A DNA stretch of 64,000 nt, taken from an uncultured Prevotella sp. GTDB taxonomy: Bacteria > Bacteroidota > Bacteroidia > Bacteroidales > Bacteroidaceae. Location of the stretch: positions 1-64,000 of the forward strand of contig CAMWVS010000004.1 in the NCBI GenBank assembly GCA_947177775.1, written 5' to 3'. Shown piece by piece: positions 30,591 through 58,016 of the stretch. The notes beneath the pieces were generated by a model. That model was not told where the DNA came from, did no database searches, and saw only the letters and a program-made list of their open reading frames with translations. The position numbers were made by a program, and so were the translations under genes. Position 1 is the stretch's first letter, and the number at the start of each line of letters is the position of its first letter.

Positions 30591-30598
30591 TAATTTTG
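30591..30598 (+). promoter_or_regulatory. -7 box (TAATTTTG) for the riboswitch transcript
   Basis: TAATTTTG immediately upstream of the riboswitch. Confidence 0.55.
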
Positions 30599-30605
30599 CA
30601 TCTGT

Positions 30606-30770
30606 TAAGGTTCGCATAACAGCGATTAAAAGGGAATGGTGGTGGAAATCCCCAACTGTCCCGCAGCAGTGAGTTCCTTTTAAAGGCTCTGATAGCAAAT
30701 CCACTGTTTTCACAGGAAGTGAAAATGGGAAGGAGTCAGAAGCCGGAACGAAGTCTGAAGACCTGCCTTG
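30606..30770 (+). ncRNA. Cobalamin (B12) riboswitch
   Basis: GGTGGAAATCCCCAACTGTCCCGCAGCAGTGA, CCACTGT, ATGGGAAGG, AGTCAGAAGCCGGAA, AGACCTGCC in canonical order. Confidence 0.93.
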
Positions 30771-30845
30771 CTGATAAACAAAAGCTGAAATTCCTCGGAG
30801 TAAGGAAGCCTGAAGCGCTCATAAATTTACGATTAACGAACAGAA

Positions 30846-30983
30846 GTCCGCGTGTGCGGACAGAACTGGCGCTGGCTTCGTCTTAGGGAATGTTACGGTT
30901 TGTCACTGACATTTTCTGAACCGTACGTGTATTATTATATAAGTTTGTTTACTGGCAAGTCCCGGCCGTGAGGTCGGGACTTG
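30846..30983 (+). ncRNA. Hairpin-rich non-coding region downstream of the riboswitch
   Basis: GTCCGC-GTGT-GCGGAC (30846-30861); TACGGTT..AACCGTA (30894-30925); CAAGTCCCGGCC-GTGA-GGTCGGGACTTG (30956-30983). Confidence 0.5.
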
Positions 30984-31193
30984 TCTCTTATATCCCTTGC
31001 TTTTTCCGTAAACAATCTGTTGTCTGCTTTGTTTTCAAAAGTCCTGCTGCCCGTTCTCTGCGGATAGAGATGACATTTCTCCTGTATTTGAAAGCGATTG
31101 GTGGTATAAAAGTGAGCGTGTTCGGAAATTTTGATGTACTTTTGCAGGACTTATAAAAGAACAGGAAATATACCGTAAAATCAATCTGAAGTT

Positions 31194-48596: not shown

Positions 48597-49754
48597 CTAT
48601 GACAGGAATCCGAGCAGCGTTCCGGCTGCGACAGCCGAACCTATCACACCGGCCACGTTCGGACCCATGGCATGCATGAGGAGGAAGTTGCGGCGGTCAT
48701 ATTCCAATCCGAGATTGTTGCTGATGCGTGCGCTCATCGGTACGGCGGAAACGCCGGCGTTGCCGATCAGCGGGTTGAGTTTCTTGTCGGCAGGCAGGAA
48801 GAGGTTCATCAGTTTGACGAACATTACTCCACTGGCAGTGGCAACCATGAAGGCACAGGCACCTACAAGGAATATGAACAGCGTGTTGAGCGTCAGGAAT
48901 TCGCTTGCCTGTGTGGAGCAGCCGACGGTCAGACCGAGCAGCATCACGACGATGTCGTTCAGAGCCGAGCCGGCTGTTTTTGCCAGACGAGTGGTTTTTC
49001 CAGATTCTTTCAGCAGATTACCGAAGAAGAGCATGCCCAGCAGGGGAAGACCGGAAGGCACGAGGAATGTCGTCAGCAGAAGTCCGATGATGGGGAAGAG
49101 TATGCGTTCGGTCTGACTGACCTGACGTGCCGGTTTCATGCGGATGACGCGCTCTTTCTTCGTTGTGAGCAGACGCATCAGCGGTGGCTGGATGAGCGGA
49201 ACAAGGGCCATGTACGAATAGGCGCACACGGCAATGGCACCCATCAGGTTGGGGCTGAGCTTGGAAGACAGGAAGATGGCTGTAGGACCGTCGGCTCCGC
49301 CGATTATGGCTATGCCGGCAGCCTGATTCGGCTCGAATCCCAGTGCCAGTGCCACCATGTAGGCTCCGAAGATTCCGAACTGTGCTGCGGCTCCGATGAG
49401 CACCAGCTTCGGGTTTGCAATCAGTGCGGAGAAGTCTGTCATGGCTCCGATACCGAGGAAAACCAATGGCGGATACCATCCCATGCGCACACCCTGATAG
49501 AATATGTTGAGCACGGAGTTGTCTTCGTAGAGTCCTATTTCCAGTCCGGCATCGGCGCGGAACGGAATGTTGCCCAGGATGATGCCCAGTCCGATAGGTA
49601 TGAGCAACAGGGGCTCGAAGTCTTTCTTTATCGCGAGGTAGATGAGCACGGCTCCCACCACGATCATAATGAGGTTTCCGGCAGAGGCGTTGACAAAGCC
49701 CGTGTAAGTCAGAAACTCGTTGAAGTTTTCTATCAGAAAGTCAGTAAATCCCAT
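48597..49754 (-). CDS. Sodium-pumping decarboxylase beta subunit (OadB/MmdB family)
   Basis: IGLGIILGNIPF, GIAIIGGADGPTAIFLSSKL, GNAGVSAVPMSARIS. Confidence 0.95.
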   Translation of the reverse strand: MGFTDFLIENFNEFLTYTGFVNASAGNLIMIVVGAVLIYLAIKKDFEPLLLIPIGLGIILGNIPFRADAGLEIGLYEDNSVLNIFYQGVRMGWYPPLVFLGIGAMTDFSALIANPKLVLIGAAAQFGIFGAYMVALALGFEPNQAAGIAIIGGADGPTAIFLSSKLSPNLMGAIAVCAYSYMALVPLIQPPLMRLLTTKKERVIRMKPARQVSQTERILFPIIGLLLTTFLVPSGLPLLGMLFFGNLLKESGKTTRLAKTAGSALNDIVVMLLGLTVGCSTQASEFLTLNTLFIFLVGACAFMVATASGVMFVKLMNLFLPADKKLNPLIGNAGVSAVPMSARISNNLGLEYDRRNFLLMHAMGPNVAGVIGSAVAAGTLLGFLS

Positions 49755-50266: not shown

Positions 50267-51241
50267 TTACTCATGGAACTGGGTCATCTGTATGTATTCG
50301 ACGTTCCAGTCTGTCTCTTTGGGTTTGATTGTGATGACACCGCTTTCGATGTCGTGGACATTGTTCTGATACTGTTTGATGGCCATTGCGATGACGGCTA
50401 TATAGATTTCCTTGTCTATACCTTTCGACTTGAGTCCGTCCTGCAGGATGACGCTTGTCTTGTTTCCTATTTCGGCTGCCGTCTCCACCATCTTCACACC
50501 GGCTTTCAGCGGTTGTATGCTGGCTACTTTCTTGGCTGCCGAGCGGTGGCTCATGATTAGTCCGAAGACCGTGAAGAAGATGAAGAGCATGGCCAGACAG
50601 GAGAACACAATCCCCATTGCGAGCACCGAGATGCCGAATCCGTGAGGGTCTTCACGCTTGAGTTTGGCAACTTTCGATTCGCTGACCGTAGTGTGGTTTG
50701 CGATTCCCGGTGTGACGGTGTCAACCGTTTTGACCTGCCATTGTGCCGCGCCGTCGTGAAGACGTGCGTACGACTGGTTGGGGCCGAGAACCGGAATGGT
50801 GACCGAGTCGATCAGCTGGGTTGCATTTCCGTTGTAGAGAGCAATCCACGTCGGGCGTTCCGGGTCGATGTTCACAGAGAGATGCAAAGCTCCTTTTGCT
50901 GGCTCGCTGTTGCAAAAGAAGAGCAGATGCTGGCGTGCACCCAGATTGGTGCGTGGTTCCCCGTTGGGGATGATGCTCATGCGCTTGATGCGTTCCGGCA
51001 CGCTCATGTCCGGGTCGAGCACGGAGCGGTCAGTGGTGAGGAACATGCCGCGTATGTTATACGTAGTGTATGAAACATTGGCAATCTCCACCCAGGCCTT
51101 GCACCGTCCGTATTCGTCCTGCATACTGGCCGTGTTGGCGGTCATGACCTCGTTCAGTTTGATGCTCTTCTCCATTTGTCCGAACATCATTGAATGGCCG
51201 GCCACCATTAGAAGCCCTAACAGTAATCCGAATTTTTTCAT
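50267..51241 (-). CDS. Lamin-tail-domain-like N-terminus fused to an OadG-type decarboxylase gamma subunit
   Basis: Signal peptide; KLNEVMTANTASMQDEYGRCKAWVEIANVSYTTYNIRGMFLTTD (LTD-like); TM GISVLAMGIVFSCLAMLFIFFTVFGLIM. Confidence 0.8.
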   Translation of the reverse strand: MKKFGLLLGLLMVAGHSMMFGQMEKSIKLNEVMTANTASMQDEYGRCKAWVEIANVSYTTYNIRGMFLTTDRSVLDPDMSVPERIKRMSIIPNGEPRTNLGARQHLLFFCNSEPAKGALHLSVNIDPERPTWIALYNGNATQLIDSVTIPVLGPNQSYARLHDGAAQWQVKTVDTVTPGIANHTTVSESKVAKLKREDPHGFGISVLAMGIVFSCLAMLFIFFTVFGLIMSHRSAAKKVASIQPLKAGVKMVETAAEIGNKTSVILQDGLKSKGIDKEIYIAVIAMAIKQYQNNVHDIESGVITIKPKETDWNVEYIQMTQFHE

Positions 51242-51302
51242 TTGGTGTAGTCAGTTTATTATATAAGTTTATTTAAAAAGAGTTTCCCTCATGTCTCAGT
51301 CG

Positions 51303-53840: not shown

Positions 53841-53920
53841 CATGTTGATATATCGTCACGATGCAGTCGTAACTATATTAGTTTAAGGTATAACTTATAT
53901 AATAAACATAAAAAAGGACT

Positions 53921-55774
53921 ATGTCAAACAACAGAGAAAGACTCTTTAGCGAGTTTGCTGCTCCCACAACTCAGGAGTGGCTGGACAAGATTGAGGTCGA
54001 CCTGAAAGGTGCCGATTTCAACAAGAAGCTCGTGTGGAGGACAAACGAGGGGTTCAACGTGCAGCCCTTCTATCGTAGAGAAGACGTTCTGAAGCTGAAG
54101 ACTCCCGAGGCTCTGCCCGGCGAGTTCCCCTTCGTGCGTGGTAACAAGAAGGACAACAACGAGTGGTACGTGCGTCAGAATATCGTTGCCGAAGATGCCG
54201 CTGAGGCCAACGCCAAGGCTCTTGACATCCTCAACAAGGGTATCGACTCGCTCGGCTTCCGCATCCCCGGCGACAAGGTGAGCGCCGAGTTCATCGACGT
54301 GTTGCTCAAGGACATCCGCTGCGACATCGTTGAGGTGAGCTTCCGCACATGTCCCTGCCACGTTCTCGAACTGACCGACATACTGACGGCCTACTTCGAG
54401 AAGCAGGGTTACGACAAGGAGAAGATTGTGGGCGGAATCGGTTTCGACCCCATCGAGAAGATGCTCATGAAGGGAAAGGACACGTCGAAGCTGCTTGCCG
54501 ACGCCCCCGTGCTCGTTGAGAAGCTGAAGGACTATCCGGGCATGCGCTGCATCATGGTCCACTCGGAAACTCTCAACAACTCCGGTGCATACATCGTTCA
54601 GGAACTCGGATATGCCCTTGCCTGGGGTAACGAATATCTCCACCAGCTCGTCGAGGCCGGGGTTGACGTCGACCTGGCTGCCCGCAGCATCAAGTTCTAC
54701 ATGGGCGTGAGCGAAAACTACTTCATGGAGATTGCCAAGTTCCGCGCCGCCCGTCTGCTCTGGGCTGAGATTGTCAAGCAGTATGAGCCAAAGTGCGACT
54801 GCTCATGCAAGATGATTGTCAACGCTCAGACGACAACATACAACAAGACCATGTTCGACAGCTATGTCAACCTGTTGCGCACGCAGACCGAGACCATGAG
54901 CGCCGCTCTGGCCGGTGTCCACTCTATCGTTGTCACTCCGTTCAATGCCGTCTACGAGCAGCCCACGGAATTCTCCGAGCGCATAGCCCGCAACCAGCAG
55001 CTGCTGCTCAAGGAAGAGAGCCACTTCGACAAGGTTGTAGACCCGTCGGCCGGTTCTTATTATATAGAGGAATTGACCCACTCACTGGCCGACGTGGCCT
55101 GGAAACTATTCCTCAAGATTGAGGAGGAGGGCGGATTCCTTGCTGCCGTCAAGGCCGGCACCGTTCAGGATGACATCAACGCCACCAACGACAAGCGTCA
55201 TGCCGACGCCGCCAAGCGCAAGGAGTTCATTCTCGGAACCAACCAGTTCCCCAACTTCACCGAGACATCCGAGGGAAAGGAGCCGAAGGCATGCTCTTGT
55301 GCCTGCGGTCACAAACACGAGTCCACGCTCAAGGCCATCTCCACAACACGTCTGGCCGCCGATTTCGAGCAGCTGCGCCTCGCAACGGAGAAGAGCGGAA
55401 AGACGCCCGTAGCCTTCATGCTGACCATCGGAAACCTCGCATGGCGTCAGGCGCGCGCGCAGTTCTCGTCGAACTTCCTCGCCTGCGCCGGATATAAGAT
55501 TATCGACAACCTCGGTTTCGAGACAGTAGAGGAAGGTGTGGACGCAGCTTTGAAGGCCGGTGCCGACATCGTCGTGCTCTGCTCAAGCGATGACGAATAC
55601 GCCACCTACGCCATCCCGGCATACCAGTATCTCGACAACCGCGCCATGTTCATCGTTGCCGGTGCTCCCGCCTGCACGGAAGATCTGAAGGCTGCCGGAA
55701 TTGAGAACTTCGTTCACGTGAAATGTAATGTGCTTGAAACACTGAAGGAGTATAATGCGAAGTTAGGAATATAA
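53921..55774 (+). CDS. mutA: Methylmalonyl-CoA mutase small subunit
   Basis: EFAAPTTQEWLDKIEVDLKGADFNKKLVWRTNEGFNVQPFYR; paired with mutB. Confidence 0.94.
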   Translation: MSNNRERLFSEFAAPTTQEWLDKIEVDLKGADFNKKLVWRTNEGFNVQPFYRREDVLKLKTPEALPGEFPFVRGNKKDNNEWYVRQNIVAEDAAEANAKALDILNKGIDSLGFRIPGDKVSAEFIDVLLKDIRCDIVEVSFRTCPCHVLELTDILTAYFEKQGYDKEKIVGGIGFDPIEKMLMKGKDTSKLLADAPVLVEKLKDYPGMRCIMVHSETLNNSGAYIVQELGYALAWGNEYLHQLVEAGVDVDLAARSIKFYMGVSENYFMEIAKFRAARLLWAEIVKQYEPKCDCSCKMIVNAQTTTYNKTMFDSYVNLLRTQTETMSAALAGVHSIVVTPFNAVYEQPTEFSERIARNQQLLLKEESHFDKVVDPSAGSYYIEELTHSLADVAWKLFLKIEEEGGFLAAVKAGTVQDDINATNDKRHADAAKRKEFILGTNQFPNFTETSEGKEPKACSCACGHKHESTLKAISTTRLAADFEQLRLATEKSGKTPVAFMLTIGNLAWRQARAQFSSNFLACAGYKIIDNLGFETVEEGVDAALKAGADIVVLCSSDDEYATYAIPAYQYLDNRAMFIVAGAPACTEDLKAAGIENFVHVKCNVLETLKEYNAKLGI

Positions 55775-55868: not shown

Positions 55869-58016
55869 ATGAGAAAGAATTTTAAAGACATAGATATATA
55901 TGCCGGTATAAAGGCTGCCGACGGCGCCGACTGGCAGAAGGCTAACGGCATTGCTCCCAACTGGAAGACTCCGGAGCACATTGAGGTTAAGCCCGTTTAC
56001 ACTAAAGAGGACCTTGAGGGCATGGAGCACCTCGACTTCACGGCCGGTATCCCGCCGTTCCTGCGTGGTCCGTACTCGATGATGTATCCGTTCCGCCCGT
56101 GGACCATCCGACAGTATGCCGGATTCTCCACGGCCGAGGAATCCAACGCGTTCTACCGCCGCAACCTCGCTTCGGGACAGAAGGGTCTGTCCGTTGCGTT
56201 CGACCTGCCGACACACCGTGGCTACGACCCCGACAACGAGCGTGTGGTCGGTGACGTGGGCAAGGCCGGAGTGTCCATCTGCAACGAGGAGAACATGAAG
56301 GTGCTCTTTGACGGCATCCCATTGAACAAGATGTCAGTATCGATGACCATGAACGGAGCCGTGCTCCCCATCCTTGCCTTCTATATCGTGGCCGGACTGG
56401 AGCAGGGAGCCAAACTCGAAGAGATGGCCGGAACGATTCAGAACGACATTCTGAAGGAGTTCATGGTGCGCAACACCTATATCTATCCGCCAGCCTTCTC
56501 AATGAAGATAATCGCCGACATCTTCGAGTACACATCGCAGAACATGCCTAAGTTCAACTCGATTTCAATCTCCGGTTATCACATGCAGGAGGCCGGTGCC
56601 ACTGCCGACATAGAGTTGGCATACACCTTGGCCGACGGTATGGACTACATCCGTGCCGGTGTGAACGCCGGAATCGACATCGACGCCTTCGCTCCGCGTC
56701 TGTCGTTCTTCTGGGCCATCGGCGTGAACCACTTCATGGAGATTGCCAAGATGCGCGCCGGCCGTCTGCTGTGGGCAAAGATTGTGAAGAGCTTCGGCGC
56801 AAAGAACCCGAAGTCGCTCGCTCTGCGCACACACTCGCAGACATCGGGATGGTCGCTCACCGAGCAGGACCCGTTCAACAACGTGGGACGTACCTGTATC
56901 GAGGCCATGGCAGCAGTGCTCGGACACACCCAGTCGCTGCACACCAACGCGCTTGATGAAGCCATCGCCCTTCCTACCGACTTCTCCGCGCGTATTGCCC
57001 GCAACACCCAGATCTATATCCAGAACGAGACCAAAGTCTGCAAGCAGATTGACCCGTGGGCAGGTTCCTACTATGTGGAGACGCTGACCAACGAGCTGGT
57101 TCACAAGGCATGGGAGCACATCCAGGAGATTGAGAAGCTCGGCGGTATGGCCAAGGCCATCGAGACCGGCGTGCCCAAGATGCGCATCGAGGAGGCTGCT
57201 GCCCGCACTCAGGCCCGCATTGACTCCGGCGTACAGACAATCGTCGGTACGAACAAGTATCGTCTTGACCACGAGGACCCCATCGACATCCTCGAAGTGG
57301 ACAACACCGCCGTGCGCAAGCAGCAGGAGGAGAGTCTTGCCGCCGTTCGCGCGTCGCGTGACGAGGAGGCTTGCCGCAAGGCGCTGTCCGGCTTGACGGA
57401 GTGCGTCCGCACAGGCGAAGGCAACTTGCTGGCTCACGCCATCGAGTGCGCCAAGCTGCGTTGTACATTGGGAGAGATAAGTGACGCCTGCGAGGAAATC
57501 GTGGGACGTTATAAGGCTGTAATCAGAACTATTTCAGGCGTGTATTCATCAGAAAGCAAGAATGACAAGGACTTCGAGCTGGCATGCCAGCTGACGGAGG
57601 AGTTCGCCAAGAAGGAGGGCCGTCGCCCGCGTATCTTCGTGGCAAAGATGGGACAGGACGGTCACGACCGCGGCGCAAAGGTTGTCGCAACGGGTTATGC
57701 CGACTGCGGTTTCGACGTGGACATGGGTCCGCTCTTCCAGACTCCTGCCGAAGCAGCGCGTGAGGCAGTGGAGAACGATGTCCATGTAGTGGGCGTTTCT
57801 TCGCTTGCCGCAGGTCACAAGACGCTCGTTCCGCAACTCATCGAAGAGCTGAAGAAAGCCGGCCGCGAGGACATCATGGTCATTGCCGGCGGTGTAATTC
57901 CCGCTCAGGACTACGACTTCCTCTATCAGGCAGGCGTTGCGGCAATCTTCGGTCCCGGCACATCGGTTGCCAAGGCTGCCGTAGAGATGATGAAGATATT
58001 GCTCGACAAGGAGTAA
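55869..58016 (+). CDS. mutB: Methylmalonyl-CoA mutase large subunit
   Basis: [40 protein letters not shown]12-binding [31 protein letters not shown]. Confidence 0.97.

Follow-up and report, generated by a model that had tools for sequence, protein, structure and literature searches.

A cobalamin riboswitch of Prevotella that may control a base-pairing small RNA for the B12-dependent propionate branch

We suggest that a cobalamin (B12) riboswitch in an uncultured Prevotella species controls a small RNA (sRNA) that base-pairs with mRNAs and, at low B12, represses the B12-dependent branch leading to propionate; judged from sequence comparison, this proposal is very probably correct. The sRNA gene lies at positions 30591-30989, forward strand, of the 64,000-nt stretch of contig CAMWVS010000004.1 (assembly GCA_947177775.1) that was analysed, hereafter the window. 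Its RNA of about 385 nt would start near 30604, run through the riboswitch and end at a terminator at 30985, with a 3′ part made up of an invariant AU-rich seed followed by the terminator hairpin. Aptamers of this class lower the RNA behind them on binding B12, and the full sRNA would then accumulate when B12 is scarce; its seed would pair with complementary sites just before the start codons of mutA and oadG, and pairing so near the start would block ribosome entry and lower expression of mutAB and oadG-mmdCB. Such an arrangement would amount to cofactor sparing, with B12 sensed by the riboswitch and the signal carried in trans, through base-pairing, to the succinate-to-propionate branch. Pairing of the seed with the two leaders is strongly supported by the comparisons given below; synthesis of the sRNA, its fall with B12, pairing in the cell and repression are steps that we infer, B12 control being the weakest of them. 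This would quite probably be the first riboswitch-controlled sRNA to pair in trans with the mRNA of an enzyme using the sensed cofactor, a genus-wide 20-nt seed repressing methylmalonyl-CoA mutase and its partner decarboxylase. Propionate is a main energy source of ruminants and a major short-chain fatty acid of the gut, and Prevotella is a dominant gut and rumen genus in which few sRNAs have been characterised; if the proposal is true, the sRNA would set B12-dependent propionate production in Prevotella, and the genus would gain an sRNA family with predicted targets.

An initial sequence-only reading of the window had placed a riboswitch core at 30606-30770, directly behind a -7 box, and had proposed a search with the Cobalamin model of Rfam. 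That search was run and bears the claim out: RF00174 matches positions 30591-30783 of the forward strand over its full length (1-189) with 79.4 bits (E 6.5e-18; gathering score 31.5), and the Rfam scan of the window returned no family besides it, none other at E <= 5. The Bacteroidota-type promoter -7 box of the sRNA gene, TAATTTTG, a match to TAnnTTTG, is at 30591-30598 on the forward strand, with the transcription start predicted from it as given above. A TAnnTTTG box is found just 5′ of the aptamer in 50 of 54 homologous riboswitch-linked loci, compared with 5% of random 120-nt stretches. The source genome holds four RF00174 copies, three besides that of the window; behind two of these (L001, L003), open reading frames (ORFs) of at least 478 aa start 64-65 nt past the aptamer, one of them TonB receptor-like and the other secreted protein-like.

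As had been claimed, no credible ORF follows the riboswitch within 30771-31190, where the longest are 55 and 62 aa, and in the conserved stretch described below the third codon positions are as invariant as the others. A conserved small ORF was considered and rejected, as the reading frame across the seed (VYYYIS) is not maintained and both the stop positions and the spacer length vary. About 140 nt separate the end of the aptamer from a 20-nt element at 30925-30944. Comparison with homologues identifies this intervening part (30784-30924, forward strand) as a variable spacer, 48-258 nt long depending on the species, which opens with a P13-like hairpin (TTCC-TCGGAGTAA-GGAA, at about 30796-30818; motif present in 41/54 homologues). 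Three ordered hairpins had been described downstream of the aptamer. The last, at 30956-30983, proved to be a genuine intrinsic terminator, GGCAAGTCCCGGCC-GTGA-GGTCGGGACTTGTC followed by TCTTAT (30954-30985, forward strand), with 14 pairs and a GTGA loop; its stem covaries across species, with double changes in 9 of the 18 pairs of the consensus fold, and the CGTGAG loop is nearly invariant. The other two, at 30846-30861 and 30894-30925, fall within the spacer and do not hold up as parts of a family-wide module; the closest relative retains the second, and the first minus its two outermost pairs. The 230-nt stretch downstream of the aptamer folds better than shuffled sequences (z = -3.4). No intrinsic terminator was found between aptamer and seed, and in Xylanibacter ruminicola the P13-like hairpin alone separates the two, so that control by B12 could be Rho-dependent or could act through decay or masking of the seed. 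The next gene on the strand, murF, begins 205 nt past the terminator, and the -7 box of its own that had been proposed near 31134 was located at 31137 (TACTTTTG). By its sequence signatures the unit is free-standing, with its own promoter and terminator and no ORF.

The most informative feature, absent from the sequence-only reading, is the 20-nt element ACGTGTATTATTATATAAGT at 30925-30944 (forward strand), which is near-identical in hundreds of species and which we propose to be the base-pairing seed. It was first seen when a 630-nt query was compared with related genomes and gave an additional perfect or near-perfect match of about 24 nt just 5′ of the terminator, at a similar spacing from the riboswitches of the other species. 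A pattern search for the conserved stretch was positive in 16 of 80 genomes of the genus, and in an alignment of 17 copies ACGTGTATTATTATATAAGT hardly varied and the terminator stem after it showed compensating changes around a constant CGTGAG loop. The covariance model built of seed and terminator (66 positions) matches 223 of the 399 genomes covered from Prevotella sensu lato, usually with one to three copies each; about 150 of the matches listed in this search have E < 1e-6. No match was obtained in the sampled genomes of 29 other genera of the family, the same search being positive in 8 of 22 members of the genus. An independent exact scan of GTDB genomes likewise returned mostly Prevotella and Prevotellaceae, including P. 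communis, P. koreensis and X. ruminicola; all 78 loci that were re-scored match the covariance model, and a search of a plasmid collection gave no match. The consensus fold consists of one weak mini-hairpin in the seed and the GUGA-capped terminator, and in predicted folds the seed is unpaired only to a moderate degree (0.45, vs 0.39 for the RNA as a whole). A search of the rest of the source genome for an RNA exactly antisense to this stretch gave none within 3 mismatches of 22. A promoter reading of the conserved stretch, in which TAAGTTTG at 30940 fits a -7 box, was rejected, since its TTTG is not kept (TTTT, TTGT and GTAT occur).

The module travels with B12-regulated transcripts and not with any particular neighbour, as it stands beside unrelated genes and nevertheless within B12 riboswitch transcripts or operons. 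A cobalamin aptamer core lies at most 500 nt upstream in 54 of 75 oriented loci, where chance would give about 2.6e-4 per locus. These 54 thus have the layout of EutX and Rli55, a B12 riboswitch 5′ of a non-coding RNA, and cmscan adds further riboswitch-linked loci (L050/L146, L101, L113, L142). Most other copies sit in btuB-cbiK-cob operons, either in the gap between cbiK and btuB or past btuB ahead of a corrin methylase gene; whether the module belongs to the leader of such an operon, separates two of its genes or closes it, synthesis of the RNA would still be tied to B12. In five loci (L110, L111, L113, L124, L139) the module is either followed immediately by btuB or occupies the cbiK-btuB gap, and its terminator must there be read through for btuB to be expressed. 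The neighbours of the orphan copies are diverse (sigma factor/rpe, glucokinase, nrdD, murF and others). Of the proposed test of conservation in 30771-30990 and of synteny with murF, the former was borne out for seed and terminator across the genus; the latter was not, as murF adjoins the module in the closest relative only among the 75 loci. In Prevotella communis E15-14 (L150, 5824-6412), two cobalamin riboswitches stand back to back and diverge, one of them leading into the seed-terminator module.

Two sites complementary to the seed are found before genes of the propionate pathway in the window. The first, AACTTATATAATAA (53892-53905, forward strand), is a 14-nt perfect complement of 30932-30945 and ends 15 nt before the ATG at 53921 of mutA, which encodes the small subunit of methylmalonyl-CoA mutase (53921-55774, forward strand; Pfam MM_CoA_mutase, E 1.1e-150); mutB, encoding the large subunit with the B12-binding domain (55869-58016, forward strand; Pfam MM_CoA_mutase, B12-binding), lies downstream of the site. 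The second, AAACTTATATAATAA (51256-51270, reverse strand), is a 15-nt perfect complement of the seed region and ends 14 nt before the ATG at 51241 of oadG, a methylmalonyl-CoA decarboxylase subunit gene (50267-51241, reverse strand; Pfam OAD_gamma, OAD_beta), which faces mutAB and is the first gene before those for the biotin carrier and MmdB (48597-49754), naming of mmdB-mmdC-oadG following PMC11575231. The oadG product has an N-terminal lamin-tail-like domain (LTD, below the Pfam cut-off) fused to OAD_gamma, and is probably the missing delta/gamma subunit of the methylmalonyl-CoA decarboxylase. An antisense 16-mer scan of the whole genome at up to 2 mismatches gave 13 non-self sites, two of which are those 14-15 nt before the mutA and oadG starts; with sites this sparse, the expectation for the 40 nt before the two genes is about 2e-4 sites. 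Ranking of the window genes by raw duplexfold energy over long leaders had missed mutA because of spurious bulged duplexes, and was replaced by the length of the ungapped complement compared with shuffled sequences. The earlier hint at MutAB as an AdoCbl enzyme encoded nearby was correct, mutA being the clearest target. Other antisense matches that recurred, CTTATATAATAAAGAGGTGATG and CTTATATAATAATAAGGATG among them, were set aside as chance matches within coding sequence.

The same sites recur across the genus, so that both the seed and its complements in the mutA and oadG leaders are conserved. Ninety mutA leaders were collected, 62 from genomes with the sRNA and 28 from genomes without a model match; a perfect complement of at least 9 and up to 18 nt is present in 56 of the former vs 10 of the latter (Fisher p 2e-7, a value overstated by the relatedness of the species). 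Of the six leaders that seemed to fail, three (G019, G100, G121) carry interrupted versions of the same site, leaving G090, G136 and the second copy of G140 as mutA leaders without a site despite an sRNA in the genome. The gain in duplex energy over shuffled mutA leaders is 8.8 kcal/mol with the sRNA, 3.2 without it and 1.0 for the reversed seed. Grouped by flanking sequence, the 56 site-bearing leaders make up 40 clusters; recently shared sequence alone therefore does not account for the sites. For oadG, 37 of 47 leaders have the site where the sRNA is present vs 6 of 23 where it is absent (p 5e-5, likewise overstated by relatedness). In both genes, about 2-27 nt (usually 7-15 nt) separate the 3′ end of the site from the start codon. 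The mutA sites mainly use one half of the seed and the oadG sites extend into the other half, which explains why all 20 nt are retained. The mutA gene itself is present in 54/57 genomes with the sRNA (E <= 1e-4) vs 28/68 without (p 7e-11, overstated for the same reason); three genomes with a strong sRNA match (G013, G034, G139) gave no mutA match. Conversely, five genomes without a model match (G143, G020, G112, G098, G152) have both sites, which suggests that their sRNA was missed or recently lost. A laxer search recovered a match below E 0.01 in G112 only and a marginal one (0.047) in G098; G020, G143, G152 and G081 carry target sites with no model match even on this search, possibly reflecting assembly gaps.

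In X. ruminicola KHP1, mutA and mutB rise with B12 in RNA and protein (log2 1.3-1.7), oadG, mmdB and mmdC beside mutAB rise weakly in RNA, mmdA and mmdC at another locus show no rise, and the PduO adenosyltransferase also goes up; genes near riboswitches fall strongly, a riboswitch-linked B12 operon being among the top changes (PMC11575231). The authors of that study considered it unknown how mutAB, mmd and the adenosyltransferase are controlled and saw no apparent direct role of riboswitches, because none of the four that they found is close to these genes; just two of the four stand ahead of B12 genes (PMC11575231). An sRNA under one of the other KHP1 riboswitches would predict the published pattern, and riboswitch, seed and terminator are all present in an X. 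ruminicola metagenome-assembled genome (L164). The sRNA would thus provide a testable answer to how B12 raises the mutase and decarboxylase in rumen Prevotella and Xylanibacter without a riboswitch nearby, the KHP1 fold changes for mutAB and oadG-mmd being modest (PMC11575231). A PduO adenosyltransferase gene was sought in the fetched loci and none was there.

It is already known that B12 riboswitches control regulatory RNAs which trap a protein or act on a neighbouring gene, as for EutX, Rli55 and the Listeria antisense RNA. Rli55 of Listeria and EutX of Enterococcus are sRNAs under B12 riboswitches that trap the ANTAR protein EutV (PMC7602753). As in these systems, a B12 riboswitch here precedes a gene-less RNA that would restrain a B12-dependent pathway in the absence of B12; it differs from them in that its conserved part is complementary to the start-codon regions of target mRNAs, and in that the very enzyme needing B12 is among the targets. 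The likeness to Rli55 and EutX noted earlier therefore holds for a B12 riboswitch controlling an sRNA and fails for the mechanism, because those RNAs trap a protein and the Prevotella RNA appears to base-pair with mRNA. A riboswitch-controlled antisense RNA in Listeria propanediol catabolism, as cited in PMC11575231, is a further parallel. Both would lead from a B12 riboswitch through a regulatory RNA to a B12-dependent pathway expressed only with B12. The Listeria RNA, which we take to be AspocR, is a cis-antisense RNA of the neighbouring gene, whereas the 20-nt seed described here would act on unlinked mRNAs tens of kb away or on other contigs. Among Bacteroidales, FopS and GibS of Bacteroides thetaiotaomicron have a conserved single-stranded seed and an intrinsic terminator and pair with translation initiation regions (PMC11697453). 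The present RNA shares the conserved seed, the terminator and the position of its sites; it differs in its link to a riboswitch and in its mutA and oadG sites, FopS and GibS having other promoters, polysaccharide-gene targets and no riboswitch. The cofactor-sparing logic is that of RyhB-type sRNAs, which at cofactor scarcity lower enzymes needing the cofactor; RyhB is controlled by the Fur protein, and here an aptamer within the sRNA transcript would instead sense the cofactor directly. An open literature search combining riboswitch, sRNA, methylmalonyl-CoA mutase and base-pairing gave no result.

Other explanations of the module have to be weighed against a B12-controlled sRNA. The sequence-only reading had offered such an sRNA alongside an attenuated leader and a remnant left when a transporter gene was lost. 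That murF comes next on the strand suggests that riboswitch and terminator could be its leader or attenuator, but murF has its own promoter box and the same module stands beside many unrelated genes; a remnant would not have kept an invariant 20-mer in more than 200 species. With so many unrelated neighbours, conservation in hundreds of species and an invariant part that is antisense to two propionate-pathway mRNAs, both readings fail and retain a negligible probability, and the B12-controlled sRNA is favoured. Equally negligible is the chance that the complementarity merely follows from the AT-richness of the leaders: seed and leaders are indeed AU-rich, and shuffled sequences too would give ungapped matches of 6-7 nt, but perfect matches of 9-18 nt in a fixed position (p near 0 by shuffling, with the reversed-seed control near zero), their absence in most genomes without the RNA and the two sites found before mutA and oadG against the tiny genome-wide expectation argue otherwise.

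The seed-terminator unit could also be a cis-acting or protein-binding element, such as an antiterminator or RNA chaperone site, with the orphan copy serving as a decoy in the way that EutX and Rli55 trap EutV. The same sense-strand module does recur in the leaders of btuB-cbiK operons, between their genes and in orphan copies, and the CGUGAG loop and the weak mini-hairpin of the seed are conserved; we nevertheless regard a decoy as improbable, as it leaves unexplained the antisense copies before mutA and oadG that track the presence of the RNA, the position of the module in operons varies freely, and the seed does not have the two-hairpin ANTAR layout. A dual-hairpin EutV site of the EutX/Rli55 type was not found, RF00174 being the sole Rfam match and the consensus comprising only the mini-hairpin and the capped terminator. 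Slightly less probable again is an sRNA whose pairing with mutA and oadG leads to activation, or one that accumulates at high B12, for instance as a terminated btuB leader. Where the module forms the immediate leader of btuB (L110, L111, L113), a B12-induced stop would yield a short RNA, and the rise of KHP1 MutA with B12 (PMC11575231) would be expected from a B12-induced activating RNA as well. Orphan copies, however, are without a second terminator by which B12 could raise the RNA, RNAs near riboswitches drop with B12 in KHP1 (PMC11575231), and pairing next to a start codon usually blocks initiation. Repression at low B12 by a base-pairing sRNA thus remains the reading that we prefer.

Some sequences outside this pattern also contain the element or its complement. 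A record labelled 'uncultured Clostridium' (L153, 6291-6326) has the 20-mer with a weak and shortened match to the model (31 bits), and is probably a chance occurrence or a misbinned contig. Two genomes (L040 and L041, 1501-1522) carry the same 22-mer, exact, within a coding sequence, where it encodes VYYYIS in a signal peptide (MK[N/Y]VYYYIS...); these copies are without riboswitch and terminator and are too long to be easily explained by chance. On the antisense side, the source genome has weaker sites 13 nt before genes that, judged by eye, resemble those for pyruvate kinase and a SusC-type receptor (L312, L308). In two species (L392, near 484; L393, near 427) an L-lactate permease gene is immediately preceded by an antisense seed site and is thereby a possible further target of the sRNA.
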